Part shown: positions 22,304-38,012 of the stretch, piece after piece
How positions within the stretch are numbered: the stretch's first letter is position 1
How the letters are laid out: every line of letters begins with the position of its first letter
Source: Bacillaceae bacterium
GTDB lineage: Bacteria; Bacillota; Bacilli; JACDOE01
Direction of reading: 5' to 3'
Assembly: GCA_017656255.1 (NCBI GenBank)
Contig: JACDOE010000005.1
Coordinates: 1-64,000, forward strand
DNA: 64,000 nt
Translations under genes and position numbers: made by a program
Notes under the pieces: model-generated
Database searches by the model: none
What the model was told of the DNA's origin: nothing
What the model saw: the letters and a program-made list of their open reading frames with translations, nothing else

Positions 22304-25087
22304 TTAATTTTTTCTTAATCTCCAGAGGATGGAACCTGAACCGATCAATAACAGGCCACTGAGGAAGATCATGTTGTACCAGGGACTGGCTGTGTTGGGC
22401 AATTCCTCTTGTGCAGGAGGTGCAGGTTGTGGGTCTTCTGGTTCAGTCGGTTCTTGTGGTGGCTCCTGAGGTTGAGGCGGGGTTTCCTCATCTGTCGAGT
22501 CATCGTCTGGCTTTTCGCCTTCATTGGTCTGGCAGGGTTCTCCCTGATTTTTGCTGGTGACATCAAATTCATAGTCTTCGCCGTAATGGACTGTTAGGGT
22601 TGTGGTGTTTCCTTCAGCCGCTTCTGTTTCAAGTGTGATGCTGCTTTCGGCTGGTATGGAAACGGGTTCGCTTTCAAATTCGGTTTCTTCGACTTCCCAG
22701 AAGATTTTTAACTCTTCGTCATTGGGATTGTAAACTTCCCACCGGCGAGTCTGATTGGGGTCTTCTGAACATAATGCAGTCAGTTCAGGAGATTCCGGTT
22801 CGTCTTTTTGGGGTTCGTCATTGTCGTCATCATCGCGTTTCGGCGGGTCATCCGGGTCGTCGGAAGGCGGGGGCGGGTTGTCATTACATTTCTCATCGCT
22901 GCTTGCCGCTTCTATAACCAGTCCTTCACCGGTGGTAACCGTTACTTTTAATGTGGTTGAACCTTCGGAATAGGTTTCTGCGGTTACCGTTGTACTTTCG
23001 CCTGACTCAAGGTCAATTTCATATTTATGTTGGCCTGTTTCGATGATTTCCCAGTTTAACCAGATTTTATAATCATTGGGGTTATGCACTTTCCACTTTC
23101 TTTCTTGATCCGGGTTGTCGGAACAAAGCGGCGTGACATCCAATTCCGGTGTTGGTTCTTCTGGCGTCTGACATGGTTTGTAACTGCTTTCTGCGATAAC
23201 GCTTTGTCCGTGACCGTATGTGACTTCGATGGCCGGGTATGGTCCATCAGGTGAGGTGCTGACTGTAATCGTTTTTTCATCACCGGGATCCAGCGTAATC
23301 GGTTCAGAACTGCTGGTGTCGGTTCCGAGAATCTTCCATTCAAAGTCAATGGACTGGTCACTGGGGTTTTTAACGGTCCAGGAAATGGTGTTTGGTTTCT
23401 CGGAACATACTTGATCGACATCCAGGATCGGACATTGTTCGTCGGTGCTATCAGAAGAAACTTTATGACCATCTCCATACTCAATCACCAGGGTGGTTGA
23501 CCCATCAGGATTTGTAACGGCTTCAACAATTTTTTCTTGCCCGGGTAGTAAAGTGATATGCTGTATATCGTTGCCATCAGATTTGGTTTCATCAATGTAC
23601 CATGAAAAAGACCATTCACGGTCAAACGGGTTCTGAACAATCCATCTGCGTGTTTGATCCGGGTTTTCCGAGCAGATCGGGGTCACACCGGGCTCTGGTT
23701 CTTCTGGCGTCTGACATGGTTTGTAACTGCTTTCTGAGATAACGCTTTGTCCGTGACCGTATGTGACTTCGATGGCCGGGTATGGTCCATCAGGTGAGGT
23801 GCTGACTGTAATCGTTTTTTCATCACCGGGATCCAGCGTAATCGGTTCAGAACTGCTGGTGTCGGTTCCGAGAATCTTCCATTCAAAGTCAATGGACTGG
23901 TCACTGGGGTTTTTAACGGTCCAGGAAATGGTGTTTGGTTTCTCGGAACATACTTGATCGACATCCAGGATCGGACATTGTTCGTCGCTGCTATCAGAAG
24001 AAACTTTATGACCATTTCCATACTCAATCACCAGGGTGGTTGACCCATCAGGATTTGTGCCGGCTTCGATAATTTTTTCTTCCCCTGATTTTAAGGTTAT
24101 AGATCCATCATCGTTGAATTGTTTAGTTTCAGGAACATACCAGTCGAAAGTTATATCAGTATCGTTAGGATTGTGTACAATCCATCTGCGTGTTTGATCC
24201 GGGTTTTCCGAGCAGATTGGGTCTATGGTTGGCTTCGGTGGCTGAGGAGTGTTGACGATTAAATCGACTGAAGCAGAATCATTACCGAATTCGGGACCGC
24301 CTGATGGCCTGGTAATCTTAGCTGTGTTTTCAAATGTATAGGTTCCAACATCCGCACTTTGGTTTGTTATTTCATAGCTGTATTTAATTGTCTGTTCAGA
24401 GGAAACATCCCAACTTAAATCATCAGCCCCTATTAAATTGAAAGTGAAACCATCAATTTTTGTGTTTGTATCTTCGACAACAGCATTTTGCCAGGCTTCA
24501 GTTGGACTGTCAGGGAGATTAAAACTTTCCTTTGGACCTATTTGCCATTCCTCATCACCAGAATGATTGGATATTGAAATTTTTGCTACAACTCGATAAG
24601 CCGTTGCTTCAGGTATTGGGTCAAAAGGAATATCATAATTAAAATATTTGCTTTCACCAGATTTTAGTTCTTCTCCGTTGTTGATGCCGGTATCTTTTTC
24701 ACTGGTATCTTTAAATTTGCTAAATGATTGAGTTTTGTATTGTAATACAACATCAACATTCAAATCTTCCGTCATGACGTCTCCAGTATTTTCAACATAC
24801 ACATCACCGGAAACTCTTGCTCTTTCATTAATTGTTTTAGTAATATCCAGTGTGTAATGAACGGTTCCTGTTTCCCCGGGATTTAAAGTTAATTGATCAG
24901 GATCAGCTGTTTTGGTGATTTCCCACATATGAAAGTTGAATAAGTATGGCTCAGCTGATATTTCAGCAACTAATGATGTACCATTTCTCCCCTTATCACT
25001 GGTGGCATTAACCGGCTGAAACAAAAACCCTTCTACTACAAGTAAAAACGTAAGAAAAAATGAAATAATGTTTGAAGTTTTTTTCAT
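22304..25087 (-). CDS. Large repetitive surface protein with C-terminal LPNTA sorting signal
   Basis: 927 residues. A signal peptide (about 1-29, ending near VNA) is followed by about 260 residues rich in beta-type sequence (NPGETGTVHYTLDITKT, resembling DUF11/conserved-repeat folds). Six modules of roughly 70-90 residues follow. Each opens with a Cys in (I/V/L)CS(E/D)xP and closes with another Cys before an acidic Pro-rich linker, so one disulfide per module is likely. Modules 1+2 and 3+4 are recent duplicates at DNA level. The end is a Pro/Glu/Gln linker, LPNTA at 896-900, a membrane helix and RLRKN. It should be cut and wall-linked by the adjacent sortase D. Charge and repeats suggest an adhesin or matrix role; no enzymatic domain is seen. 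Its promoter matches that of the pilus operon. Confidence 0.88.
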   Translation of the reverse strand: MKKTSNIISFFLTFLLVVEGFLFQPVNATSDKGRNGTSLVAEISAEPYLFNFHMWEITKTADPDQLTLNPGETGTVHYTLDITKTINERARVSGDVYVENTGDVMTEDLNVDVVLQYKTQSFSKFKDTSEKDTGINNGEELKSGESKYFNYDIPFDPIPEATAYRVVAKISISNHSGDEEWQIGPKESFNLPDSPTEAWQNAVVEDTNTKIDGFTFNLIGADDLSWDVSSEQTIKYSYEITNQSADVGTYTFENTAKITRPSGGPEFGNDSASVDLIVNTPQPPKPTIDPICSENPDQTRRWIVHNPNDTDITFDWYVPETKQFNDDGSITLKSGEEKIIEAGTNPDGSTTLVIEYGNGHKVSSDSSDEQCPILDVDQVCSEKPNTISWTVKNPSDQSIDFEWKILGTDTSSSEPITLDPGDEKTITVSTSPDGPYPAIEVTYGHGQSVISESSYKPCQTPEEPEPGVTPICSENPDQTRRWIVQNPFDREWSFSWYIDETKSDGNDIQHITLLPGQEKIVEAVTNPDGSTTLVIEYGDGHKVSSDSTDEQCPILDVDQVCSEKPNTISWTVKNPSDQSIDFEWKILGTDTSSSEPITLDPGDEKTITVSTSPDGPYPAIEVTYGHGQSVIAESSYKPCQTPEEPTPELDVTPLCSDNPDQERKWKVHNPNDYKIWLNWEIIETGQHKYEIDLESGESTTVTAETYSEGSTTLKVTVTTGEGLVIEAASSDEKCNDNPPPPSDDPDDPPKRDDDDNDEPQKDEPESPELTALCSEDPNQTRRWEVYNPNDEELKIFWEVEETEFESEPVSIPAESSITLETEAAEGNTTTLTVHYGEDYEFDVTSKNQGEPCQTNEGEKPDDDSTDEETPPQPQEPPQEPTEPEDPQPAPPAQEELPNTASPWYNMIFLSGLLLIGSGSILWRLRKN
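23152..23515. repeat. In-frame 364-bp direct repeat, copy A
   Basis: Nearly identical to 23695-24058, with about three mismatches in 364 bp by eye. The offset of 543 bp equals 181 codons. It encodes the module beginning CPILDVDQVCSEKPN. Confidence 0.85.
23695..24058. repeat. In-frame 364-bp direct repeat, copy B
   Basis: Partner of the copy at 23152-23515. The high identity implies recent duplication or gene conversion, and the gene can be expected to vary in module number. Confidence 0.85.
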
Positions 25088-25275: not shown

Positions 25276-25289
25276 TTCTTTATAAAGAA
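25276..25289. promoter_or_regulatory. Distal SinR-like operator, TTCTTT-AT-AAAGAA
   Basis: A perfect 14-bp palindrome that contains GTTCTTT (minus strand, 25284-25290), an exact match to the B. subtilis SinR consensus GTTCTYT. It starts exactly 71 bp from the proximal operator, the same distance as in the flp promoter. Confidence 0.65.
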
Positions 25290-25339
25290 CGATGGAGGTC
25301 TACTTTTCTCTGCCATCCTCCTTCCATCGCTGTTTTTCG

Positions 25340-25376
25340 TTCTTTAAAAAGAATAATAACGTTCAATAAAAAGAAC
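25340..25376. promoter_or_regulatory. Further SinR-like boxes
   Basis: TTCTTT-AA-AAAGAA at 25340-25353 with GTTCTTT at 25339, and a minus-strand GTTCTTT at 25370-25376. They lie in the ~370-bp gap between the LPNTA gene and the M23 gene, which otherwise holds only the M23 terminator. Confidence 0.5.
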
Positions 25377-27090: not shown

Positions 27091-27417
27091 TTATATTTGC
27101 TGTTTTTGCCATTTCTGAAATGCCAGAAACTCTCGAAACTGGTCTTTGCTCACTCCGGAATCCATCGCTTCCCGTGCTAGTTCAAGCCACTCCTGGTCCA
27201 GTTCTTCATCATGGGTTTCATTTTCCGAATTGAGAAGTGCCTCCACACTAACATCCAGGACACGGGCAACTTTCTCCAAAAACTGGATGGATGGATTGGA
27301 TTGAATGTCACGTTCAATTGAACTGAGGTACGATTTAGCAACACCTGCACGATCAGCAAGCTCTGAGAGCGAGAGCCCTTTTTCCAGCCGTTTTTGTTTG
27401 ATACGTTTGCCGATCAT
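27091..27417 (-). CDS. sinR: SinR-like biofilm/matrix repressor, copy 1
   Basis: 108 residues. The N-terminal XRE helix-turn-helix is almost that of B. subtilis SinR: MIGKRIKQKRLEKGLSLSEL, then AGVAKSYLSSIERDIQSNPSIQFLEKVARVLDVSV. The C-terminal half carries the SinI-like oligomerisation helix pair LDQEWLELAREAMDSGVSKDQFREFLAFQKW. SinR tetramers repress matrix operons and are disarmed by SinI, which swaps into this C-terminal interface. It lies 161 bp after a sinI gene, the B. subtilis order. A TATAAT at plus 27454-27459 (minus strand) may give it its own promoter, as in B. subtilis. Confidence 0.93.
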   Translation of the reverse strand: MIGKRIKQKRLEKGLSLSELADRAGVAKSYLSSIERDIQSNPSIQFLEKVARVLDVSVEALLNSENETHDEELDQEWLELAREAMDSGVSKDQFREFLAFQKWQKQQI

Positions 27418-27578: not shown

Positions 27579-27731
27579 TTAGCGGTTTTTCTTCTGGTAG
27601 GCAATAAACTGGCGAATATCTTCCGGTTTAATTCCGATTTTTTTGGCTTCTGCCATTAATTGAATCCACTCTTTATCCAGTTTTTTTTTATTACCAGATT
27701 GGCGACCGGAGTGTGGGTTGGCTGAACTCAT
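27579..27731 (-). CDS. sinI: SinI-like antirepressor, copy 1 (50 residues)
   Basis: A 50-residue frame starting at the ATG at 27731 with gaggaggt upstream. A Ser/Asn-rich leader of about 17 residues is followed by LDKEWIQLMAEAKKIGIKPE and DIRQFIAYQKKNR. This matches B. subtilis SinI (LDQEWVELMVEAKEANISPEEIRKYL) across the whole SinR-binding helix-turn-helix. SinI binds SinR one to one and prevents DNA binding. It lies immediately upstream of sinR and directly downstream of a GEMM-like riboswitch, so its level may answer to c-di-GMP. The gene is too short for most ORF callers. Confidence 0.9.
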   Translation of the reverse strand: MSSANPHSGRQSGNKKKLDKEWIQLMAEAKKIGIKPEDIRQFIAYQKKNR

Positions 27732-27754
27732 ACCTGACCTCCTCTATACTATTC

Positions 27755-27826
27755 TGGCAGTCCAGCCGTCTAACCGACATTAGACCTGAGACTTTGCGAA
27801 CCTGACATGACAGGGTTGCCTTTATC
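27755..27826 (-). promoter_or_regulatory. GEMM (c-di-GMP-I type) riboswitch upstream of sinI copy 1
   Basis: On the minus strand: AAAGGCAACC, a small CCTG/CAGG hairpin, TTCGCAAAG, then CAGGTCTAA, and finally GACGGCTGGACTGCCA. These are the conserved GEMM elements in order (GGCAAACC, CGCAAAG, GGxCTAA, GGCxGGxxTGCC), with GGCA/TGCC closing the outer stem. Only about 20 bases separate it from the sinI ATG, with the gaggaggt site inside, so control of translation is likely. It is not followed by a terminator. A GEMM variant binding cGAMP cannot be excluded. Confidence 0.75.
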
Positions 27827-28016
27827 ATAATATGTTGGTTTGATGGTGGTTATGATGGGGGATAAAAAATCCCCACTGTGGTAACCGTGGTGATGAGCTG
27901 AAATTCTCTAGATTTTTTTCGGTGAATATTATTTTTAAGAAGATTTTCAATTATTGCCATTATACGTGAACAGGCGTTACACTATTGTTACAAAGCAGGA
28001 AAAAGGAGGGTTGCAT

Positions 28017-29534
28017 GTGCCTGCTATTTTTAAAGAGGATGATCAAATTTATTATCAGTTTATGTATGATGAGGATAAGAAAGAGACCCTTATTTTTATA
28101 CACGGGATCGGTTTGGACCATACGGTGTGGGACAGTTTTGTTCCGTTTTTTCAACAGGAATACAATATCTTAACCTATGATTTGCGCGGTCACGGATACA
28201 GCGATCCTGGGGTCAAAAAAATAAGCTGGCAGACTTTTTATGAGGATCTGTTGTATTTGATCGACACTTTAAACATACTGAATCACCAGGCCATCCACAT
28301 CATAGGACACGGATTCGGTTGTAACATCGCGGCCAGGTTTACCCTGTTGAATCCGGATATCGTTCAATCCCTTACGCTACTATCATTCACCGGTTTTTAT
28401 CCACGATCCTATGCCGAAAAAATCCGGAAATTTCGCCTTGAACTCTCACAAAAGGAGTCCATGACATCGGTCGGTCAACACATTATTCAATTTGCAACAA
28501 AACTTCCGAAAGGTAGCAGGGATTTTCAAAAACTGGCGGCAACTTACACCCGCGTTTCAAAACAAATTTATTTTGAGATTGTAGATTTAATGATTGCGTC
28601 CAGACCTACCCGTGATTTGCATCATATCAATGTTCCATCCCTGATTCTTGCCGGTGAACTGGATCTGATTTATCCACCTTACCTCTCCGGGCTTTCCGCC
28701 TTTTATCTGTCAAAATTTAATTTTCTTATTGTTCCTGATGCATCCAATATGATGTTTATCGATCAGCCTGCTACCACATATCAGTGGATTCATAACTTTG
28801 TTCGAAAGTCGTACAGAGATACCGGTCCGGTACAGGATGAAAGTTTTCTGGACTTTTTTGAAGAATTAAGGTCAAAAATTCAAGTTATTCTTGAGGAAGG
28901 GATCAAGAAAGCCGATTCAATCGATGAGTTAAAAGTAGAATTGCTCGGAACATTTCGTGTACATATCAACGGTGAGGAAATACTGGAAGGATGGAACCAA
29001 CGCCACGCCAAGCAAATTCTGGTTTATTTATTATTTCACCCTTCTGTCACGAGAGCGCAGCTTTGTGATGACCTGTGGCCGGATGTTCCGTTCAGCAAAT
29101 CAAGAAATAATTTAAGAGTGTATCTGTCCCATTTAAAGAAATTACTTGATCAAGAAGCGAGTTCAACCCCTTTTCTGGTCATGGATCATGAACACATACA
29201 TCTAAAGGGGAAGGTAACATGTGACTTGATTGATTTTATAGAAGAAATGGAAACCGCTTATCTCGAAACAGAAGTCGAGCAGAAATATCTCCTTTCACAG
29301 AAGGTGCTCAACAAGCTGCCGCAAAATCCGTTTAACGAACTCTATTATGATTGGAGCCTGAAACGAAGAGACCAGTTGGAGCATAAATTGTTTCAGTTAG
29401 CTAAATGGATGGGGGATTTTCATTTTGGTAAACAAGAAGATGTAAAAGCACTTGAATATTATAAACGTGCCAGTGATTTTAATCTGGACGATGAAGACAT
29501 TCATCAAAAAATCACCGTACTGTCTAAACGCTGA
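28017..29534 (+). CDS. Regulator: degenerate alpha/beta-hydrolase sensor fused to SARP-type DNA-binding and BTAD domains
   Basis: 505 residues. About 1-265 form an alpha/beta-hydrolase: FIHGIGLDHTVWD near 28, YDLRGHGYSDP near 54, and the elbow GHGFG at 97-101. The nucleophile Ser is Gly99. The acid is present (Asp216, AGELD), but the catalytic His position is Asn244 (PDASNMMFIDQP). A charged linker leads to a winged helix (about 305-400, VELLGTFRVHINGEEI to LRVYLSHLKKLL) and a TPR-like BTAD region (about 400-505) as in SARP/AfsR activators. I infer a ligand-binding pseudoenzyme that controls transcription. The GTG at 28017 has aaggaggg 6 bases upstream. It lies between, and opposite to, two sinI-sinR cassettes. 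Confidence 0.85.
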   Translation: MPAIFKEDDQIYYQFMYDEDKKETLIFIHGIGLDHTVWDSFVPFFQQEYNILTYDLRGHGYSDPGVKKISWQTFYEDLLYLIDTLNILNHQAIHIIGHGFGCNIAARFTLLNPDIVQSLTLLSFTGFYPRSYAEKIRKFRLELSQKESMTSVGQHIIQFATKLPKGSRDFQKLAATYTRVSKQIYFEIVDLMIASRPTRDLHHINVPSLILAGELDLIYPPYLSGLSAFYLSKFNFLIVPDASNMMFIDQPATTYQWIHNFVRKSYRDTGPVQDESFLDFFEELRSKIQVILEEGIKKADSIDELKVELLGTFRVHINGEEILEGWNQRHAKQILVYLLFHPSVTRAQLCDDLWPDVPFSKSRNNLRVYLSHLKKLLDQEASSTPFLVMDHEHIHLKGKVTCDLIDFIEEMETAYLETEVEQKYLLSQKVLNKLPQNPFNELYYDWSLKRRDQLEHKLFQLAKWMGDFHFGKQEDVKALEYYKRASDFNLDDEDIHQKITVLSKR

Positions 29535-29618: not shown

Positions 29619-29951
29619 CTATTGATTTTTTCTGTTTTTTTGCCATTTTTGAAACTCCAGAAACTCTCGAAACTGATCTTTGCTGATTCCGGAATCCATC
29701 GCTTCCCGTGCAAGCTCAAGCCACTCCTGATCAAGTTCTTCATCAAGGGATTCATTTTCCGGATTGAGAAATGTTTCTACACTTACATCAAGGACACGGG
29801 CTACTTTTTCTAAAAATTGAATGGATGGATTGGATTGAATGTCACGCTCGATTGAACTGAGATATGATTTGGCAACACCTGCACGATCAGCAAGTTCTGA
29901 GAGCGAGAGCCCTTTTTCCAGTCGTTTCTGTTTGATACGTTTGCCGATCAT
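29619..29951 (-). CDS. sinR: SinR-like repressor, copy 2
   Basis: 110 residues, differing from copy 1 at only a handful of positions, mostly between residues 60 and 75 and at the C-terminus. The DNA-binding helix is identical, so both proteins should bind the same sites. The C-terminal LDQEWLELAREAMDSGISKDQFREFLEFQKW forms the SinI-binding domain. It sits after its own sinI, with TGGTATAAT (plus 29992-30000) upstream as a possible private promoter. B. subtilis keeps one SinR plus the diverged SlrR; here the two copies are far more alike, suggesting a recent duplication of the whole cassette. Confidence 0.93.
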   Translation of the reverse strand: MIGKRIKQKRLEKGLSLSELADRAGVAKSYLSSIERDIQSNPSIQFLEKVARVLDVSVETFLNPENESLDEELDQEWLELAREAMDSGISKDQFREFLEFQKWQKNRKNQ

Positions 29952-30117: not shown

Positions 30118-30273
30118 TTAATTGTTTTTTTTCTGAAGGGCAATGTACCGGCGAACTTCTTCCGGTTTAATGCCGATTTTTTTAGCTTCTGCCAATAACT
30201 GAATCCATTCTTTATCCAGTTTTTCTTTGTTTTTTGACGACGAATGATCGGACGATTGACTGGCTGAACTCAT
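30118..30273 (-). CDS. sinI: SinI-like antirepressor, copy 2 (51 residues)
   Basis: A 51-residue frame from the ATG at 30273. A Ser-rich leader (MSSASQSSDHSSSKNKEK) is followed by LDKEWIQLLAEAKKIGIKPE and EVRRYIALQKKNN, again the SinI fold that captures SinR. The first four codons and the ribosome site are the same as in copy 1. The leader lengths differ by one residue, and most differences lie in the leader and the last helix. It follows a second GEMM-like riboswitch. Either SinI could act on either SinR. Confidence 0.9.
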   Translation of the reverse strand: MSSASQSSDHSSSKNKEKLDKEWIQLLAEAKKIGIKPEEVRRYIALQKKNN

Positions 30274-30296
30274 ACCTGACCTCCTCTATACTATTC

Positions 30297-30369
30297 TGGC
30301 AGTCCAGCCGTCTAACAGAACATTAGACCTGGGACTTTGCGAACCTGTTATGACAGGGTTGCCCTTATC
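30297..30369 (-). promoter_or_regulatory. GEMM (c-di-GMP-I type) riboswitch upstream of sinI copy 2
   Basis: The same element order as copy 1. The small hairpin is CCTGT/ACAGG here instead of CCTG/CAGG, and the GTC-C-CAGG and TGTTCTG segments differ, changes that fall in stems or loops. The conserved CGCAAAG and GGTCTAA are unchanged. Similarity to copy 1 continues about 30 bases further upstream (CATCATAAC and AAACCAACAT). The remaining ~180 bases towards the flp promoter are A/T-rich with no gene seen. Confidence 0.75.
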
Positions 30370-30568
30370 AAACCTATGTTGGTTTTATTGTAGTTATGAT
30401 GCGGGCAGGTTTCAATGATAAATAATCAAAAAATTACGACAATATAGATGTAAATATTTGTAGAAATTTGTGCTTGATTTGTAAAAGGGTCAGTTTGCTG
30501 TAGCTATGTTCAGAAAATTTTAAAAATGAGTAAACGGGAGATATAAGGAGTATTTTATAGCCTTGTAG

Positions 30569-30601: not shown

Positions 30602-30654
30602 TTTTATTTAGAGAACAAACATAATATACTGTTGGTGTATTCGTTATAACGAAC
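30602..30654 (+). promoter_or_regulatory. flp/tad promoter and proximal SinR-like operator
   Basis: TTTTAT (30602-30607), a 17-bp spacer, TATACT (30625-30630), 9 bp, then the perfect palindrome TTCGTTATAACGAA (30640-30653) followed by C. The layout and most bases match the LPNTA-operon promoter. Confidence 0.7.
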
Positions 30655-30683: not shown

Positions 30684-30869
30684 GTGCTGGAAAAATTGAA
30701 GCGTTTGCTGGTTGAAGAGGAAGGTCAGGGGTTGAGTGAGTATGGATTGATTATTGGATTGGTGGCGCTTGCTGTGATTGCTTTGCTTGCCACTCTTGGG
30801 GATCAACTAAAAAATATATTCAATTCTATTATAAATACGTTATCGAATAATGGAATTTCTACAAGTTAA
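30684..30869 (+). CDS. flp: Flp-type pilin (Tad pilus major subunit)
   Basis: 61 residues. A charged leader (MLEKLKRLLVEEEG) ends at a predicted prepilin cleavage after Gly14, giving a mature start QGLSEYGL with Glu at +5 and Tyr next, the Flp hallmark. A hydrophobic stretch, LIIGLVALAVIALLATLG, forms the assembly helix, with a short polar tail. The GTG start has gaggagg upstream. It is first in the tad operon, so it is the most abundant product; a hairpin just downstream may favour this. Pili of this class promote attachment. Confidence 0.92.
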   Translation: MLEKLKRLLVEEEGQGLSEYGLIIGLVALAVIALLATLGDQLKNIFNSIINTLSNNGISTS

Positions 30870-30885
30870 CACTATCAATAACTTT

Positions 30886-30911
30886 GCAGCTCCACCATGC
30901 CGTGGAGCTGC
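30886..30911 (+). terminator. Stem-loop between flp and tadV (partial terminator or 3' stabiliser)
   Basis: A perfect 10-bp stem, GCAGCTCCAC/GTGGAGCTGC, with a 6-nt loop but no T run after it. It probably protects the flp message or only partly ends transcription, giving excess pilin over assembly proteins. Confidence 0.6.
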
Positions 30912-30932
30912 CTTCCAGGGAGAAGTGAATCT

Positions 30933-31427
30933 ATGGACTACATTCTCATACTGGTTTTAATCATTTCCTTCTTGACCGATCTCGACGCAAGAAGAATTTT
31001 AAACATCGTCACTATTCCCGCCATGATTCTGGGGATTTCATACCATCTTATTACGGCAGGTTGGTCCGGATTCGTGTTCAGCATGGAAGGATTGCTTCTG
31101 GGACTGGGTCTCCTGCTGATTCCTTTTTTACTGGGTGGAATGGGAGCGGGAGATGTCAAACTGCTTGCTGCCATCGGAGCAATCAAAGGTCCGGCATTTG
31201 TATTTCAGGCCTTTATATTTACCGCCATCATCGGGGGCCTCATCTCACTTATCCTCATCCTTAGAAAATACAACCTGCGGGAACTCCCCAGACAGATATA
31301 TGTTTCCCTCACCTTCCTGCGCAGTGAAAACGGCTCATACAAACCTTCATCATCGGGCAGATCTTTTCCCTACGGAGCCGCCATTGTACTAGGCACCTTC
31401 TGTACATATTTCTGGGGGAGGTTCTGA
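30933..31427 (+). CDS. tadV: Tad prepilin peptidase (A24 family, TadV/CpaA)
   Basis: 164 residues, mostly membrane helices. The two catalytic aspartates of A24 peptidases are visible, one in FLTDLDARRI near residue 15 and the second in the GxGD motif GGMGAGDVKLLAAIGAIKG near residue 73. It cleaves the leader of Flp and of TadE-type pseudopilins. It lacks the methylase domain of type IV PilD, as TadV proteins do. The start at 30933 has gggagaag upstream; an earlier ATG at 30897 lies inside the hairpin. The stop overlaps the tadE start by one base. Confidence 0.9.
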   Translation: MDYILILVLIISFLTDLDARRILNIVTIPAMILGISYHLITAGWSGFVFSMEGLLLGLGLLLIPFLLGGMGAGDVKLLAAIGAIKGPAFVFQAFIFTAIIGGLISLILILRKYNLRELPRQIYVSLTFLRSENGSYKPSSSGRSFPYGAAIVLGTFCTYFWGRF

Positions 31428-31810
31428 TGAAATCACAAAAAGGGCAGTCAACGGTGGAATTGGCATTAAGTATGATGGTCCTGTTGCTGATTTTGTTCGG
31501 TATTACGGACTTTGGCCGAGTATTTCATGCTTACCTGACGCTGGAACATGCCAGCCGGGAAGCAGCCCGGTTGGCCAGCGTCGGAGGCGATAATTCCGAG
31601 ATTATTCAAAAGGCGAAAGATGCTGCAGCCAGTCTTGATCTGTCTCAATTGACCATTTCTATTACGCCGACCGATTCTTCTAAACGCGTCCGCGGGAGTA
31701 CGGTATCCGTCCAGTTGGAATATCAGATTGATTTTTTGACGCCTCTGATTCAGCCGGTGTTTCCGGACCCTTTTTCTTTAAAAAATCAGGCGGTTATGAG
31801 GGTGGAATAA
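31427..31810 (+). CDS. tadE: TadE-like pseudopilin
   Basis: 127 residues. MKSQKGQSTVELALSMMVLLL shows a prepilin-like cleavage site (Gly6/Gln7) with Glu at +5, then a hydrophobic helix. FGRVFHAYLTLEHASREAARLAS is the conserved TadE block. TadE and TadG are minor pilins or pseudopilins needed for pilus assembly or adhesion. ATG overlaps the tadV stop, and tadG follows after 3 bp. Confidence 0.88.
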   Translation: MKSQKGQSTVELALSMMVLLLILFGITDFGRVFHAYLTLEHASREAARLASVGGDNSEIIQKAKDAAASLDLSQLTISITPTDSSKRVRGSTVSVQLEYQIDFLTPLIQPVFPDPFSLKNQAVMRVE

Positions 31811-31813
31811 CCG

Positions 31814-32869
31814 ATGAAAAAATTATCTTTTTTTAAAAATTTAAAAGAAGAGACCGGTTCTGTTCTGGTTCTGGTTGCTGCCGCTATGGTGGCATTGCTG
31901 GGTCTCTCAGCGATCGTGATTGATGGGGGGCGGCTATATTATGAAAAAAGTAAGCTCCAGAAGGCTGTTGATGCCGCAGTGCTTGCAGGTGCCCCTCACG
32001 TATTAAATCAAAGTACCGATGTAGTTAAAGAAGTAGTAAAAAAATATATCAAAAATAATGGCATGTCGGACTTTTCATTAACTGATTTTCAAATCACACA
32101 TGATAAGAATCGTCTTCATGTTGAAGCCCAAACAGGGGTTGCCTTAACCTTTGCCAGGGTAATTGGTTTTTCCAATCAAGATGTCAGGGCAGCCGCCACG
32201 GTAGAACTCAGCGCATTGGTGTCTCATAAGGGTAAAGGGTTAATCCCGCTGGGGATCAATGTAACCAAATTTGAAGATTTTGAAAAGGAAGAAGAACTGA
32301 CACTGAAGTTTGAGGATTTCGATAGCAGTAAAGATCCGGGATGGTTCGGACCGTTGTTGTTTGAACCGGTGGAATATCTGGAGGAAGAAAAGGAAGAAGG
32401 AGAAGCCGGGCAATTCAGAGCAGCAATACGGACAGGATCAAAATATCCCATCAAGGTTGGCGATATCCTTGAAGTTGCAGACGGGGTTAAACATGGTCCC
32501 ACCATTCAGGGTTTCAAAGGGAAAGGCAATGAATTAAACGGATTGTTTGGAACCTGTACGGATGATCCGGACTGGATTGAAGATGTGGAAGACGTGAACC
32601 AGTACCTGGAGGATACTGAAAATACGGATTGTCATAATCGGTTGGTCATTGTTCCTGTCTATGAACCCCATACGTATGAAAATACAGAAAAGGATAAAAA
32701 GGTTATTGATGTAGAAGTGTTAGGCTTTGCCACGATTTTTATCACTGAAGTTCAAGAAAAAGGTGAAAAGGCAACTGTTCGCGGCGTTTTTATGGATTAT
32801 GCCGTCTCTGGTGAGGGTTCAAAGAATGTCCCGGAGTATGGTGCATATACATTTAGATTAATAGAATAG
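31814..32869 (+). CDS. TadG-like pilus assembly protein
   Basis: 351 residues. The N-terminal ETGSVLVLVAAAMVALLGLSAIVIDGGRLYYEKSKLQKAVDAAVLAGA is the putative Flp-assembly TadG/TadE N-domain (PF13400): one membrane helix, then the conserved D-G-x-Y...L-Q-x-A-x-D-A-A-x-L-A. The remainder is an acidic extracellular region with two Cys in GTCTDDPDW and NTDCHNR that may pair. No von Willebrand domain is evident. It follows tadE in the operon and probably works with it at the cell surface. Confidence 0.82.
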   Translation: MKKLSFFKNLKEETGSVLVLVAAAMVALLGLSAIVIDGGRLYYEKSKLQKAVDAAVLAGAPHVLNQSTDVVKEVVKKYIKNNGMSDFSLTDFQITHDKNRLHVEAQTGVALTFARVIGFSNQDVRAAATVELSALVSHKGKGLIPLGINVTKFEDFEKEEELTLKFEDFDSSKDPGWFGPLLFEPVEYLEEEKEEGEAGQFRAAIRTGSKYPIKVGDILEVADGVKHGPTIQGFKGKGNELNGLFGTCTDDPDWIEDVEDVNQYLEDTENTDCHNRLVIVPVYEPHTYENTEKDKKVIDVEVLGFATIFITEVQEKGEKATVRGVFMDYAVSGEGSKNVPEYGAYTFRLIE

Positions 32870-32896
32870 TACATTTATAAAAAAGCAGGAGGCATT

Positions 32897-33508
32897 ATGA
32901 AAACACGAAAAATCTGGATTTGGGCCATCCTTTTCGGTTTGATGGCCTCGATTACGTTATATTTCACCGTTTTTCTCAAATACACTCCCGGTTCGGCACA
33001 AACCGGAACGCCGGATACGGTTCCTGTTACGTCCGATTCCAACAACGAAGATCCTGCCAGCCAGGATCAAACACCGAAAGATCAGGACGCAGAAGCTGAT
33101 ACCACAGCCAACAAAATAATCCCCATAGAAGAAGGAAAAAGGGCGATCTCCATCAAGGTCAACGATGTGCAGGGCGTTTCCGGGTTTGTGAAACCGGGGG
33201 ATCATGTCGATCTGGTCTCTATCATCCGACCGCCCGAGGAAGCGATTCAACAGGGGCAACATGCAGCAGCTCAGATCCTGCTGCAGAATGTGAAGGTGCT
33301 TGCCGTTGGCCATGCGGCGGACCACGAAGAGGAGGCAGCCCGCTATACATCCGTCACCATTGAAGTGACTCCCCGAGAAGGATTGTTTGTTGGGTTTGCC
33401 ACTAAACATGAATTATATCTGATGCTACGTAAAACGGGGGATGAGACACTTGAACCAGAGCACACGCATGTGCATGAAGATGAGCTCCATGAAGGGGTGT
33501 ATCGATAA
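32897..33508 (+). CDS. cpaB: Flp pilus assembly protein CpaB/RcpC (SAF domain)
   Basis: 203 residues: an N-terminal membrane helix (about 6-26), a Pro/Asp/Thr-rich linker, then a SAF-like domain. IPIEEGKRAISIKVNDVQGVSGFVKPGDHVDLVSI is the CpaB signature and ILLQNVKVLAVG its second block. In Gram-negatives CpaB/RcpC lies at the secretin; this Gram-positive operon has no secretin gene, so the role is probably in the wall or at the membrane. The C-terminal tail is His/Glu-rich. It abuts cpaE directly. Confidence 0.88.
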   Translation: MKTRKIWIWAILFGLMASITLYFTVFLKYTPGSAQTGTPDTVPVTSDSNNEDPASQDQTPKDQDAEADTTANKIIPIEEGKRAISIKVNDVQGVSGFVKPGDHVDLVSIIRPPEEAIQQGQHAAAQILLQNVKVLAVGHAADHEEEAARYTSVTIEVTPREGLFVGFATKHELYLMLRKTGDETLEPEHTHVHEDELHEGVYR

Positions 33509-34720
33509 ATGGAAATCAAATGGCTCGGTCTGACAGACAACACAAGATCGGTATCCCGTGTCGACATCGCTGTTAAAAAAACGGAAAATACGCTGACCTG
33601 GTATACCAGAGAAGACGCACTGCGGCGTGAACTTGAAAACGTGGAACATGCCGTGGTTTTTCTTAAAGCGGCTACTTCCTACGACATCTATCAATTATGC
33701 CGTGAATTTTCTCTTTTTTATCCCCTGGTCTGCACCGTACTTCTAGTTCCAGAAGACGAACTGGATCTGAAAAAAGCGATGCGCGTCGGGGCCGTCGATG
33801 TTATCCGGCTTTCCTCCAGGGAGGAAGAAATCGTTGATGCCATAAAAGAAGCGGAAAATGCCGTCAAATTAAAATCGACTCAGGTGAACCATGCCCGAGA
33901 GGAGGAAAAAAAAGAATACGCCAGAGTGATCACCATCACCAGCACCAAAGGGGGAGTGGGAAAATCGACGATTGCAGCCAATCTGGCGACCGCTTTTGCC
34001 AGAAAATTGCTAAAGGTAGCGGTTCTCGATCTGGATTTGCAGTTCGGTGATATGGCGATTCTATTTGATGTCAAGCCCCGAAGAACCATTTACGACTGGG
34101 TCAACGAAGAATACAATGATGCCAAAATTGGCGTAGAGAGGGTGATGATCAAGCATGAAAGCGGTGTTCACATTTTTCCTTCCCCGCTGCGGCCTGAATT
34201 TGCCGAATTTATCAACGGACAACATGTGGATACTCTGATCCATCAACTCAAGGAGACCTATGATGTCGTCCTGGTCGATACATCACCTGCCCTGGTTGAA
34301 ACGGGGCTGGTTGCAATGGAAAATTCCCAGGATATCCTGCTGGTCACGACCAAAGAACTCCCCACACTTAAAAACTCCAAACTTCAAATTGAAACACTGG
34401 AATCGCTGGGACTCAAAGACAATATCCACCTCCTGTTGAATCGGGACTCCAGGGTCAAAGGGTTAAACATGCATATGTGTGAAGAAATTCTGGGCACGAA
34501 GGTGTATGAAAAAATACCGGAAGATGAAAAAGTGGTCCTCCCCTCGGTCAATCAGGGAAAACCGTTTGTACTCTCCAGCCCCCGAGCGCCGGTGTCCAAA
34601 AGTATCTATTCCCTGGCGGATAAACTGAATCCCAGACCCAAACCTCGAGAAAAGAATAAGAAATCTTCCATTTTCAAAAAGATCATACGAAATGGGAGGA
34701 GAGTATCTTGTCTCTTTTAA
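33509..34720 (+). CDS. cpaE: CpaE/TadZ-like MinD/ParA-family ATPase
   Basis: 403 residues. The N-terminal ~125 residues resemble a receiver-like domain (YPLVCTVLLVPEDELDLKKAMRVGAVDVIRLSS), as in CpaE/TadZ. A MinD-type ATPase follows, with the deviant Walker A TSTKGGVGKSTIAANLA near residue 147, VAVLDLDLQFGD and DVVLVDTSP. TadZ places the pilus machine at the pole or membrane. The C-terminus is very basic (KNKKSSIFKKIIRNGRR). Its end overlaps the cpaF start by 13 bases. Confidence 0.92.
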   Translation: MEIKWLGLTDNTRSVSRVDIAVKKTENTLTWYTREDALRRELENVEHAVVFLKAATSYDIYQLCREFSLFYPLVCTVLLVPEDELDLKKAMRVGAVDVIRLSSREEEIVDAIKEAENAVKLKSTQVNHAREEEKKEYARVITITSTKGGVGKSTIAANLATAFARKLLKVAVLDLDLQFGDMAILFDVKPRRTIYDWVNEEYNDAKIGVERVMIKHESGVHIFPSPLRPEFAEFINGQHVDTLIHQLKETYDVVLVDTSPALVETGLVAMENSQDILLVTTKELPTLKNSKLQIETLESLGLKDNIHLLLNRDSRVKGLNMHMCEEILGTKVYEKIPEDEKVVLPSVNQGKPFVLSSPRAPVSKSIYSLADKLNPRPKPREKNKKSSIFKKIIRNGRRVSCLF

Positions 34721-36057
34721 AACGTATAGAAGAAAAAGAATTCAACCAGGATCAAAATGGAGAGAAAAAGCGTTACACCACTCCTGTAAAAAAGAAACCC
34801 CGGCATATGGAGGAAAAAGAGCAAAAGCTTCATAACTACCTGGTCGAAGAATTGAAGAAACACCCCGGTCAGGATGACGCTCATATCAAAAAATTAATTC
34901 GTGACCTCTCAGACCCCTTTTTTGAGCAGGAAGGCGAACGGTTGACCTTTGAACAGAAAAAGCAGTTACTCATCAATGTTGAAAATGAGTTGACCGGATA
35001 CGGACCGATCACACCGCTTCTGGCAGACCCGCATGTGTCAGAGGTCATGGTTAACGGGCCTGATCAGGTCTATATTGAAAAAAACGGACATCTTTACGAA
35101 TCGGATGTGGCGTTTCGCGATGATGAACATGTATTGCGAGTCATCGAAAAAATCGTATCCCCGCTGGGGAGACGCATTGATGAGAGCATGCCGATGGTCG
35201 ATGCCCGGCTTCCGGACGGGTCCCGTGTCAACGCCATCATTCCTCCGCTTGCTTTAAACGGCCCCACACTGACTATTCGCAAATTCTCGAAGGAGCCTTT
35301 TCAGATTCATGATCTGATCCGAATGGGTACGTTGGATAAGAAAATGGCCAAATTTCTGGATGGTTGTGTCAAAGCCAGGCTTAACATGTTTGTCAGCGGG
35401 GGAACCAGCTCAGGTAAAACAAGTACCCTGAATGTCCTTTCTTCATTTATCCCCAACGACGAAAGGATCGTCACCATCGAAGATGCAGCAGAATTGAAAC
35501 TGTACCAGGATCATGTGGTGTCGCTGGAAACGCGCCCATCCAATATAGAGGGCAAAGGAGAAATCAGCATTCGGGATCTGGTGCGAAATTCGCTGAGGAT
35601 GAGGCCGGACCGCATTGTCGTCGGAGAGGTCAGAAGTGCAGAAACGTTGGATATGTTACAGGCGATGAACACGGGGCATGATGGCAGTCTGGCTACCGGA
35701 CACGCCAACTCACCCCGGGAATTGCTGTCCCGTCTGGAAACGATGGTTCTGATGGCAGGAATGGACTTACCGGTCCGCGCCATCCGTGAACAGATAGCCG
35801 GTGCGCTTGACTTGATTATTCACCAGTCCCGGTTAAAAGATGGCACCCGTAAGATTACACACATGACAGAAGTGCTGGGAATGGAAGGGGACACCATCGT
35901 GCTACAGGATATATTTGTGTATCGTCAGACCGGTGTTTCTCCGGATGGAAAAATAGAGGGGAATTTCGTATCTACCGGTATTCGTCCCCATTGCGCCGAC
36001 ACACTTGAGCGATTTGGCATCGACCTTCCGGCAGAATGGTTTCAGGAGGCGTGGTAG
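34708..36057 (+). CDS. cpaF: Tad pilus secretion ATPase (CpaF/TadA)
   Basis: 449 residues of the type II/IV secretion ATPase family. Walker A is FVSGGTSSGKTSTLN near residue 232, the Asp box lies around TIEDAAEL, the His box is NTGHDGSLATGHANSPRE, and the TadA-type VMVNGPDQVYIE is in the N-domain. It powers Flp polymerisation. The start is a TTG at 34708 with gggaggag 6 bases upstream, inside the end of cpaE, so translation is coupled. Confidence 0.95.
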   Translation: MSLLKRIEEKEFNQDQNGEKKRYTTPVKKKPRHMEEKEQKLHNYLVEELKKHPGQDDAHIKKLIRDLSDPFFEQEGERLTFEQKKQLLINVENELTGYGPITPLLADPHVSEVMVNGPDQVYIEKNGHLYESDVAFRDDEHVLRVIEKIVSPLGRRIDESMPMVDARLPDGSRVNAIIPPLALNGPTLTIRKFSKEPFQIHDLIRMGTLDKKMAKFLDGCVKARLNMFVSGGTSSGKTSTLNVLSSFIPNDERIVTIEDAAELKLYQDHVVSLETRPSNIEGKGEISIRDLVRNSLRMRPDRIVVGEVRSAETLDMLQAMNTGHDGSLATGHANSPRELLSRLETMVLMAGMDLPVRAIREQIAGALDLIIHQSRLKDGTRKITHMTEVLGMEGDTIVLQDIFVYRQTGVSPDGKIEGNFVSTGIRPHCADTLERFGIDLPAEWFQEAW

Positions 36058-36058
36058 T

Positions 36059-37051
36059 ATGACGGGCGAACCGGTGGTGTTAGCAGCTGTTTCATTCGTT
36101 TTATTGACGTTTGTTTTCGGTCTATCAGCGGGGACCTGGTCTCGCCGCAGGAACCGTTTGAAGCATCGGCTTGATCACTACCTTTCCATCGGGAAGGGCA
36201 GTGACAGAGAGGCTTCCGGAGGTGCTCATCGCACACGTCAGGATCATCGTCGCTGGCTGTACGGAGTCGTCAAAAAAACAGGGAAGCCGTTTGCCGCCTG
36301 GCAATCTGTCAGGAAATGGGAGGAGAAACTGATTCAGGCAGCCATTCCACTGAGAACAGAAGAGTTTTTTGCCGTTCGTTTGTTAAGTGCGGGCACCATA
36401 ACCCTGTTTTTCTGGTTGCTGGTTCAAGATGGGGTATTTTTACTGATTCTTGTTGCGTTTATCGGTTATATGCTCCCGGTCATCTTCGTAAACCGTCGGA
36501 GAACAAAACGGCTGGCGAGATGTTCAGTACAATTGTCTGAAGCACTCGGTACCATGGCCAACGCGATGAGAGCCGGCTTCAGCTTCATGCAGGCCATGCA
36601 ACTGATTGGAAAAGAAGTCCCGGATCCGCTGGGTCCGGAGTTTGATCGAGCGATCCGCGAAGTCCAGCTCGGTGTCTCCCTGGAAGAAGCGTTTGCCAAT
36701 CTGGAGAGACGCTTGCCCGATGACGATCTGCATCTTGTATTAACATCCCTGCTTATTCAACGGACAACAGGCGGAAATCTGGCCGATCTGCTGGAAACCA
36801 TGCAGGAGACAATTCGGGGAAGGGTACGGATTAAGGAAGAGCTCAGAACCCTGACGGCACAGGGACGTATGTCCTCCTGGATCATTTCCCTTTTGCCACC
36901 CGGGGTGGGCATTTATTTATATGTGATGAATCCGGAATATTTTATGCCGCTCCTGACTCATCCTCTCGGTTGGTTGATGCTGGGATGCGGAACCATTACC
37001 GGCATCACAGGATGGTTGTTTATTCGAAAAATTGTTCGGATTGAGGTGTAA
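36059..37051 (+). CDS. tadB: Tad inner-membrane platform protein TadB
   Basis: 330 residues with membrane helices near the N-terminus, around 110-150 and at the C-terminal end. The cytoplasmic GspF/T2SF domain includes LSEALGTMANAMRAGFSFMQAMQLIGKEVPDPLGPEF, the hallmark of TadB. It pairs with TadC as the platform that the CpaF ATPase rotates or flexes. The ATG at 36059 has aggagg 9 bases upstream; it overlaps nothing and starts 1 bp after the cpaF stop. Confidence 0.93.
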   Translation: MTGEPVVLAAVSFVLLTFVFGLSAGTWSRRRNRLKHRLDHYLSIGKGSDREASGGAHRTRQDHRRWLYGVVKKTGKPFAAWQSVRKWEEKLIQAAIPLRTEEFFAVRLLSAGTITLFFWLLVQDGVFLLILVAFIGYMLPVIFVNRRRTKRLARCSVQLSEALGTMANAMRAGFSFMQAMQLIGKEVPDPLGPEFDRAIREVQLGVSLEEAFANLERRLPDDDLHLVLTSLLIQRTTGGNLADLLETMQETIRGRVRIKEELRTLTAQGRMSSWIISLLPPGVGIYLYVMNPEYFMPLLTHPLGWLMLGCGTITGITGWLFIRKIVRIEV

Positions 37052-37055
37052 GACC

Positions 37056-38012
37056 ATGGCGGCCTTCTTTTTTCTATTATCCAGTTTTTTTAGTATGACC
37101 CTGGTCGGTGCCGGCATCCTGTTTTATCTAAATCGAAGCCATCTCCAAATGGAGCGTCGCGTATCTCTTTTTATTACAGATTCTCAGGACAAAAAAAATG
37201 CCGCCCATCATGATCGTGCAGAACAAAAAAAGAACGTCAACAAAGTTTACCAGAGGGTCGTCCGCCCGTCGTTAAAAAAGGCGCGGACTGTTACCGATCA
37301 GAAAATGGCCGGATACACCCGAAGAGAACTGGCCAAAAAACTGGAGGCAGCCGGTTATCCATTTAACTGGAATCCGGTGGATTTTCGCCTTACTCAAATT
37401 TTCCTGGGACTCACCTTTTTTCTGGTGATTTTTCTCCTGTTCGTTCCGGTGAGTGATGACGCCCGGGCCGGTCGCGTGGTATTGTTATCCGTGGTAGCGG
37501 GTCTTTTCGGCTTTCTTTACCCCAAGTATTATCTGGAGGCCAAAAAGAAGCAACGGGTTAAGGCGATCGAAAGGGGTATGCCGGACTTCTTTGACATGTT
37601 GAATCTGTCGATTGAAGCGGGAATGGGGCTGGACGGAGCCATTGCCAGAGTTTGCAGGCAACTGCAGGGACCGTTGTCTGAAGAATTTCTCCGGACACTG
37701 GAAGATATGAAACTGGGAAAATCACGGCGTCAGGCATTTTCAGAATTAAGGGACCGCGTGCCATCGGATCCCTTTCAGAGTATAATCAATGCGCTGATCC
37801 AGGCGGATCATCTGGGTATCGGAATGTCTAAAGTGCTTCGGTCTCTGACGCAACGCATACGTGAACAGCGGAGGGAGCAAGCGAGGGAGCAGGCGATGAA
37901 AGCGCCGGTTAAAATGCTTTTTCCCATGGTCTTCTTTATTTTCCCCTCTTTGTTTATCGTATTGCTGGGTCCCCTGGTGATATTCTTGATTACCGACGGA
38001 CTGGGATTCTGA
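37056..38012 (+). CDS. tadC: Tad inner-membrane platform protein TadC
   Basis: 318 residues, also a T2SF/GspF-fold protein: MPDFFDMLNLSIEAGMGLDGAIARVCRQL, then FSELRDRVPSDPFQSIINALIQADHLG, and a C-terminal helix pair (MLFPMVFFIFPSLFIVLLGPLVIFL). It starts 4 bp after tadB. It closes the nine-gene unit flp-tadV-tadE-tadG-cpaB-cpaE-cpaF-tadB-tadC, followed by a strong terminator, so the pilus system is complete for a Gram-positive. Confidence 0.93.
   Translation: MAAFFFLLSSFFSMTLVGAGILFYLNRSHLQMERRVSLFITDSQDKKNAAHHDRAEQKKNVNKVYQRVVRPSLKKARTVTDQKMAGYTRRELAKKLEAAGYPFNWNPVDFRLTQIFLGLTFFLVIFLLFVPVSDDARAGRVVLLSVVAGLFGFLYPKYYLEAKKKQRVKAIERGMPDFFDMLNLSIEAGMGLDGAIARVCRQLQGPLSEEFLRTLEDMKLGKSRRQAFSELRDRVPSDPFQSIINALIQADHLGIGMSKVLRSLTQRIREQRREQAREQAMKAPVKMLFPMVFFIFPSLFIVLLGPLVIFLITDGLGF

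Follow-up and report, generated by a model that had tools for sequence, protein, structure and literature searches.

Does a regulator encoded between two sinI-sinR cassettes bring a signal of its own into the switch that governs biofilm formation, and by what means? This question is raised by a 64,000-nucleotide stretch of contig JACDOE010000005.1 from a Bacillaceae bacterium (assembly GCA_017656255.1), hereafter called the window. In B. subtilis, sinI is activated by Spo0A-P; SinI antagonises SinR, and SinR represses matrix genes. The two cassettes of the window, both on the minus strand (27731-27091 and 30273-29619), do flank the regulator gene, as the initial annotation had described. The features discussed below are collected in Table 1.

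Table 1 Features of the regulator locus and its surroundings in the window.
Feature	Position	Strand	Basis
Pseudo-α/β-hydrolase-SARP fusion regulator gene	28017..29534	+	GTG start, 505 aa, RBS, homologues, AF2 model
Very probably non-catalytic α/β-hydrolase domain, residues 1-265	28017..28811	+	Pfam, active-enzyme alignment, Foldseek, residue census, dN/dS
Linker and connecting helix, residues 266-300	28812..28916	+	pLDDT minimum (268-272 <50), helix 275-300
Winged-helix DNA-binding domain, residues 301-400, recognition helix ~359-377	28917..29216	+	Trans_reg_C sub-threshold, AfsR, conservation
BTAD/TPR-like helical domain, residues 401-505	29217..29531	+	C-terminal model and Foldseek
Inferred SARP operator, two 11-bp direct repeats, TGTAACaatagTGTAAC	27976..27992	-	Pattern search, family conservation, offset test
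-10 box TATAAT of putative SARP-dependent sinI1 promoter	27959..27964	-	Exact match 11 bp after operator
c-di-GMP-I riboswitch aptamer, sinI1 leader	27753..27830	-	Rfam RF01051 47.7 bits, gathering 35
sinI1, 50-aa antirepressor, proposed direct target	27579..27731	-	Pfam SinI 51.3 bits, cut-off 31.4
sinR1	27091..27417	-	HTH_3 and SinI domain above cut-off
Ordinary sigma-A-type promoter of sinI2, TTGAAA-17-TACAAT	30387..30415	-	Just before riboswitch 2
Second c-di-GMP-I riboswitch, sinI2 leader	30295..30373	-	Rfam 44.4 bits, gathering 35
sinI2	30118..30273	-	Pfam SinI 46.4 bits
sinR2	29619..29951	-	HTH_3 and SinI
Flp/Tad pilus locus	30684..38012	+	Flp_Fap, Peptidase_A24, TadE, ParA-like, T2SSE, T2SSF

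A fusion regulator with a SARP-type C-terminal half

The regulator ORF (28017-29534) is a real gene: its GTG start is preceded by a strong ribosome-binding site, AAAAAGGAGG (28000-28009), it runs over 505 codons, and many Bacilli have homologues of full length. AlphaFold2 models the entire 505-residue protein with a mean pLDDT of 88.7. With hydrolase-only matches left out, 13 of 400 sampled Bacilli genomes encode full-length fusions, as do about 31 of the 399 genomes of one order-level sample (~8%, two hydrolase-only matches left out). Named genomes of Paenibacillus, Brevibacillus, Alteribacillus, Lederbergia, Caldalkalibacillus, Alicyclobacillus and Priestia carry them. The gene of Priestia aryabhattai B8W22 is apparently split by a frameshift (L058, 10001-11146 and 11109-11555), and that of a relative (L208) is intact. 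A search of the open-access literature, with subscription journals outside its scope, returned no description of an α/β-hydrolase-BTAD fusion family or of its link to sinI.

Modelled alone, the C-terminal half reaches a pLDDT of 89.5. Its six best PDB matches by Foldseek are AfsR (8hvr/8k60) and EmbR (2ff4/2fez), the next match being 1000 times weaker, and the match to AfsR spans the whole wHTH-BTAD length (TM 0.63-0.66). AfsR is also found by sequence with this half (E 0.0013). The winged-helix domain is the most conserved stretch of the fusion family (0.727). Trans_reg_C matches it weakly, at residues 333-383 (22.6 bits for a threshold of 26.2), and stays sub-threshold in 18 of 21 family members. 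The Pfam BTAD model PF03704 was matched in a single member of these 21, with an E value of 0.13, so that the BTAD assignment rests on the fold. Hence, the original description of this half as a winged helix and BTAD stands by fold, through AfsR and EmbR as the top six matches, and does not stand for the Pfam BTAD model. As modelled, the C-terminal half is a SARP-type winged helix followed by a TPR/BTAD domain.

The catalytic triad is lost across the family

The α/β-hydrolase fold of the N-terminal half is recognised by Pfam (Abhydrolase_1, residues 24-250, 2.6e-21), in the model and by Foldseek, and includes a four-helix cap at about residues 130-202. The catalytic Ser-Asp-His triad is absent. 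The residue numbering given initially is exact, with the GHGFG motif at 97-101, Gly99 within it, Asp216 and Asn244. HMMER alignment to solved active enzymes places Gly99 at the nucleophile Ser (GHSMG in 7dq9, GWSMG in the PHB depolymerase 8ynv) and Asn244 at the catalytic His, with the acid Asp216 kept. The two proposed substitutions and the retained acid are thus borne out.

This loss is conserved family-wide. Gly99 is kept in 24 of the 25 proteins of a first homologue set. In a census of 70 fusion proteins that takes in a few near-duplicates, 54 have Gly at the nucleophile position, five have Ser (Caldalkalibacillus among them) and 11 another residue; seven retain His at its position; none combines Ser with His; and 67 have Asp or Glu as the acid. 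Since the five Ser and seven His are carried singly, the loss is not strictly uniform. Position 244 is variable (Asn, Ser, Phe, His, Tyr, Thr and others). Among standalone hydrolases encoded in the same or related genomes, 22 of 23 have Ser and 21 of 23 have His, and the fusions form one clade against them (support 100/100). In addition, Gly99 is encoded by all four Gly codons across homologues, and close pairs show purifying selection on the hydrolase half (dN/dS 0.07-0.26). A sequence error or a decaying gene is ruled out by the codon usage, this selection and the 70 homologues. Comparison of these sequences places the loss of the Ser-His pair in the common ancestor of the fusion family, with the loss conserved since. 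We therefore hold with high confidence, from sequence comparison, that the hydrolase half is non-catalytic, in line with the first judgement that catalysis was unlikely.

It would be highly improbable that the domain is instead an enzyme of unusual, Ser-independent chemistry, with turnover rather than binding as the signal. The enol-lactonase/esterase fold, the kept acid and the Ser of Caldalkalibacillus and four other members would suit such an enzyme; the variability of residue 244 and the lack of any member with both Ser and His argue against it.

In one clade with tandem arrays, Arg, Ile, Lys or Tyr occupies the nucleophile position. Two or three paralogous regulators are arranged in tandem in family f40 (L215 5698-10790, L217, L220, L221, L222, L213 and L216), whose members have Gly, Ser, Arg, Lys, Ile or Tyr there. 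These arrays often adjoin flagellar hook-basal body and fabZ-like genes, or exopolysaccharide genes. The differing nucleophile residues of tandem paralogues suggest pockets of different specificity.

Foldseek matches the hydrolase half to the feruloyl esterase 7dq9, the enol-lactonase 2xua, 3om8, esterases and KAI2, and a sequence search of the PDB also returns RsbQ, KAI2 and D14. The best NCBIfam enzyme families are PcaD-type, at 84-87 bits for a family cut-off of 255.85. No HSL-type family was among the Pfam matches of the regulator, and GID1 was absent among the PDB matches listed. Kinship with GID1 was rejected, as the HSL/GID1 Pfam family is unmatched; the comparison with this plant receptor is valid as an analogy of logic, not as kinship.

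A dead α/β-hydrolase fold may also serve as a scaffold, as it does in NDR proteins and neuroligins. The hydrolase half could accordingly be ligand-free and hold a dimer or a protein partner, with the regulator controlled by that partner or by its own level. Pfam Ndr, a triad-less α/β-hydrolase family, is matched marginally (23.9 bits for a cut-off of 23.3, residues 19-156 only); the Abhydrolase_1 match is far stronger. The cap is the least conserved part of the hydrolase domain (0.41), and a binding pocket does not follow from the missing Ser and His alone. A pure scaffold, however, has no need of the acid or of the oxyanion-type His-Gly after the first core strands, both of which are mostly kept in homologues, and the tandem paralogues differ at the nucleophile position as differing pockets would. 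We regard the scaffold as rather unlikely. Ligand binding by the hydrolase half is plausible from the sequences, as it fits the fold, the kept His-Gly and acid, the purifying selection and the diversified pocket residue of the paralogues. That the ligand may be a lactone or an ester is a guess by analogy with the fold.

A putative SARP-type promoter faces sinI1

Side-by-side comparison of the family upstream regions brought out a direct repeat with a period of 11 bp; repeats with periods of 10, 12, 21 and 22 bp were not consistent above shuffles in these regions. The pattern RYTACA-N5-RYTACA lies upstream of the regulator, on its own strand and within 350 bp, in 16 of 22 members; allowing one mismatch raises the count to 17. 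With any of the 18 other spacers from 0 to 18, it is found nowhere in the 22 upstream regions, and the remaining 466 kb of family loci hold four copies. The 64-kb window contains one match for 0.03 expected. Two matches are found in the whole 3.4-Mb genome, one at the regulator; the second, antisense beside an MFS gene, was judged a chance occurrence, and a genome-wide regulon defined by the strict pattern was rejected. The pattern is modestly above the reversed control in 20 relatives. With few genome sites and so modest an excess, the regulator's control would be mainly local.

Read on the opposite strand, the site is TGTARY-N5-TGTARY and points toward the neighbour gene. Across 30 representative sites, the match to TATAAT after the operator peaks at 11 bp with a mean of 4.17 out of 6; the score is at most 2.77 at the other offsets from 2 to 21, and the best of 2000 shuffles gives 2.9. 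With a conventional -10 box at -12..-7, the repeats fall at -40..-30 and -29..-19. This inferred geometry is that of the afs box in the AfsR-RNA polymerase structure, which is centred at -29.5, the SARP dimer compensating for a poor -35 box (PMC10936776). Direct repeats of 11 bp are the classical SARP site (PMC5930380). AfsR-type SARPs and the present family hence share repeats that replace the -35 box (PMC10936776, PMC5930380), in our case as a prediction.

The minus-strand promoter of the window, TGTAACaatagTGTAACgcctgttcacgTATAAT, combines a perfect operator with an exact TATAAT at 11 bp and has a predicted start near 27952. It runs into the c-di-GMP-I riboswitch (27830-27753), then sinI1, then sinR1. 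We read it as a putative SARP-type promoter aimed at the riboswitch-sinI1-sinR1 operon, and its geometry predicts an activator role for the regulator. The operator is newly recognised here, as is a c-di-GMP-I riboswitch before each sinI. c-di-GMP-I aptamers bind c-di-GMP.

Over 790 bp, the two sinI-sinR cassettes share 81.6% identity. At the place of cassette 1 that matches the sinI2 promoter, the sequence reads CACCAT, and a promoter-like site was not found there on the minus strand. With its own promoter degraded and without the sigma-A promoter that serves cassette 2, cassette 1 seems dependent on the SARP promoter. The predicted sinI1 leader before the aptamer, about 120 nt, is unusually long and counts against the operator model. 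An inverted repeat, GGGGATAAAAAATCCCC, is found at 27857-27874, between the proposed sinI1 start and the aptamer.

OmpR-family regulators likewise use 11-bp direct repeats, and the PhoP boxes of B. subtilis, TT[ATC]ACA, resemble the repeat described here. The site might thus belong to an OmpR-type response regulator such as PhoP that controls both genes. Yet only two sites occur genome-wide, one of them here, the sites are concentrated at loci of the regulator family across lineages, and the last base of the site is a pyrimidine where the PhoP box has A; we consider this attribution very unlikely.

Further along the window, the Flp/Tad locus of this Bacilli member is divergent from riboswitch-sinI2-sinR2 and shares about 300 bp of intergenic DNA with it. 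Judged from the sequence, this locus is a likely SinR target and downstream output. Three SinR-box-like GTTCTYT sites lie in 93 bp (25284-25376) just upstream of the gene for a 927-residue LPxTG surface protein (22304-25087), and one lies upstream of flp (30610-30616). The window holds 24 such sites for 18.6 by chance, a total that is not above chance; the cluster at the LPxTG gene is notable.

Operators and sinI linkage in other lineages

The operator with its -10 box adjoins the regulator gene in about 30 lineages. The regulator is linked to sinI in the window, in Priestia and in a clade of five genera. The Priestia sinI-sinR genes are divergent from the regulator, with the operator and a TATGAT box facing sinI. 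In the five genera, sinI is the next gene downstream of the regulator, and the operator has shifted from the upstream region of the regulator to the front of sinI (that of L196 requires two mismatches and was identified by eye). A c-di-GMP-I-GGC aptamer lies between operator and sinI in three of these five genera; riboswitches were not found near sinI in L195, L200 and Priestia. The sinI linkage requires three changes on the family tree and is therefore not one inherited arrangement. None of 29 control sinI loci, fetched regardless of the regulator, has the operator with a -10 box. A c-di-GMP-I aptamer was detected nearby in 11 of 20 other Bacilli sinI loci scanned; from these sequences, such a riboswitch before sinI is apparently widespread in Bacilli.

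Other operators face other genes. Giant S-layer-homology (SLH) proteins are faced in L045, L048 and L052, a large Ig-domain surface protein in L039, a PilZ protein gene in L055 (9419-9898), a diguanylate cyclase (GGDEF) in L224 (4800-5843, with the -10 offset at 10) and a protoglobin gene in L056 (6554-7243). Operators adjoin exopolysaccharide (Wzz/CpsB) operons in L194, L213, L219 and L042. Some aim at small genes of no known function, and in one Paenibacillus group at miaB. A recognisable operator beside the regulator is absent in L040, L041, L043, L054 and others.

Several neighbourhoods deserve mention in their own right. The regulator neighbours c-di-GMP proteins (GGDEF, PilZ) or protoglobin in L132 (14608-15732), L224, L055 and L056; as this is seen in several lineages, the c-di-GMP link recurs outside sinI. 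Three related genomes carry a regulator-adjacent family of uncharacterised proteins of about 100 residues with an operator and -10 box directly in front (L205 2911-3213, L206 7693-7998, L209 7699-7995), a candidate new effector in the place of SinI by its position. In Paenibacillus mesophilus and P. hemerocallicola, the gene divergent from the regulator encodes a giant flagellin (L054 5060-9490, 1476 residues; L040 1-4139, at least 1379 residues at a contig end).

The position of the operator bears on whether the regulator might chiefly repress itself, its effects on sinI1 being incidental. The operator of the window sits 25-41 bp ahead of the regulator's start codon, across a weak plus-strand promoter match; the Priestia operator lies just after a plus-strand -10. 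Autorepression is possible, since the operator occupies the regulator's own upstream region. However, the fixed-offset -10 belongs to the neighbour's strand and not to the regulator's, the operators of clade L191-L200 and of L039 stand upstream of sinI or a surface-protein gene instead of the regulator, and autorepression and activation of sinI1 can coexist. A chiefly autorepressive role is thus unlikely, and direct activation of sinI1 by the regulator appears probable from these sequences. The extra input into the biofilm switch that had been proposed at the outset is supported by the SARP operator and consensus -10 aimed at riboswitch-sinI-sinR, and by a sinI linkage that has arisen three times.

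A proposed ligand-gated input beside c-di-GMP

In our best reading, the protein is a SARP activator gated by a ligand; it switches on SinI and so adds a second input to that of c-di-GMP. We give this reading a probability of about two in three. Within it, gating by a ligand through the hydrolase domain is somewhat favoured. The regulator would act as a one-component transcription activator, a small molecule or a protein partner binding the hydrolase pocket or cap and altering how the SARP half dimerises or is exposed. Sigma adaptation is the means by which SARPs recruit RNA polymerase. Here, two protomers would occupy the 11-bp repeats and recruit sigma-A RNA polymerase to a promoter without a -35 box. 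The sinI1 mRNA would then be made, with c-di-GMP further setting its translation or elongation via the aptamer. SinI would antagonise SinR and free matrix, surface-protein and probably Flp/Tad genes. The locus would hence form a two-input gate on one transcript, with the state of the regulator controlling initiation and c-di-GMP controlling expression through the leader.

AfsR and other SARPs of Streptomyces, and EmbR of Mycobacterium, share the winged helix and BTAD/TPR fold with this family. In the defining SARP features that the analysis covered, the regulator agrees with them apart from its Pfam BTAD score. Their sensors are NOD/ATPase, TPR or FHA modules, whereas the putative sensor here is an N-terminal dead α/β hydrolase. 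In addition, the host is a member of the Bacilli, the predicted targets are SinI, surface and exopolysaccharide genes instead of antibiotic clusters, and the operator sequence (TGTARY) differs. Sensor, host group and target are the new aspects of this proposed SARP activator.

RsbQ, KAI2/D14 and GID1 share with the hydrolase half a fold with a helical cap and a signalling role, and GID1 is catalytically dead as well. RsbQ, D14 and KAI2 retain the triad, with slow hydrolysis, whereas the present regulator, related to them in sequence and fold, has lost it; GID1 belongs to the HSL family, which the regulator does not match. Unlike the regulator, none of these proteins is fused to a DNA-binding domain. 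PcaD, the 3-oxoadipate enol-lactonase, is among the best NCBIfam families and a top structural match (2xua), but the regulator falls far below its cut-off and lacks the triad.

The sinI and sinR genes are shared with B. subtilis, with the Pfam SinI domain above cut-off. What sets the window apart from B. subtilis is the duplicated cassette and a sinI1 promoter with a putative SARP operator and a c-di-GMP aptamer. A (c-di-GMP)-sinI arrangement has been reported in Bacillus methanolicus MGA3 (PMC4342826); the pairing with a pseudohydrolase-SARP regulator and its operator is absent from that report (PMC4342826).

What is understood of how Bacilli enter biofilm growth centres mainly on Spo0A-P and its action on sinI. 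Many soil and spore-forming bacteria share the present arrangement, which looks like an undescribed signal input to biofilm formation. If our reading is true, a conserved family with its own sensor addresses sinI through a recognisable promoter, a separate signal route that the sequence by itself reveals. SARPs, known for actinobacterial antibiotic clusters, would be extended to surface and biofilm control in Bacilli, and the regulator would be an example from bacteria of a dead hydrolase acting as a receptor, with a ligand that can be searched for. More broadly, and with the chances evenly balanced, the family may be hormone-receptor-like: a dead enol-lactonase/esterase fold would bind a diffusible metabolite, and the fused SARP would directly fire sinI, or in relatives exopolysaccharide, S-layer, PilZ or diguanylate-cyclase genes, as a dedicated chemical input that is independent of Spo0A and is combined with c-di-GMP on one sinI transcript.
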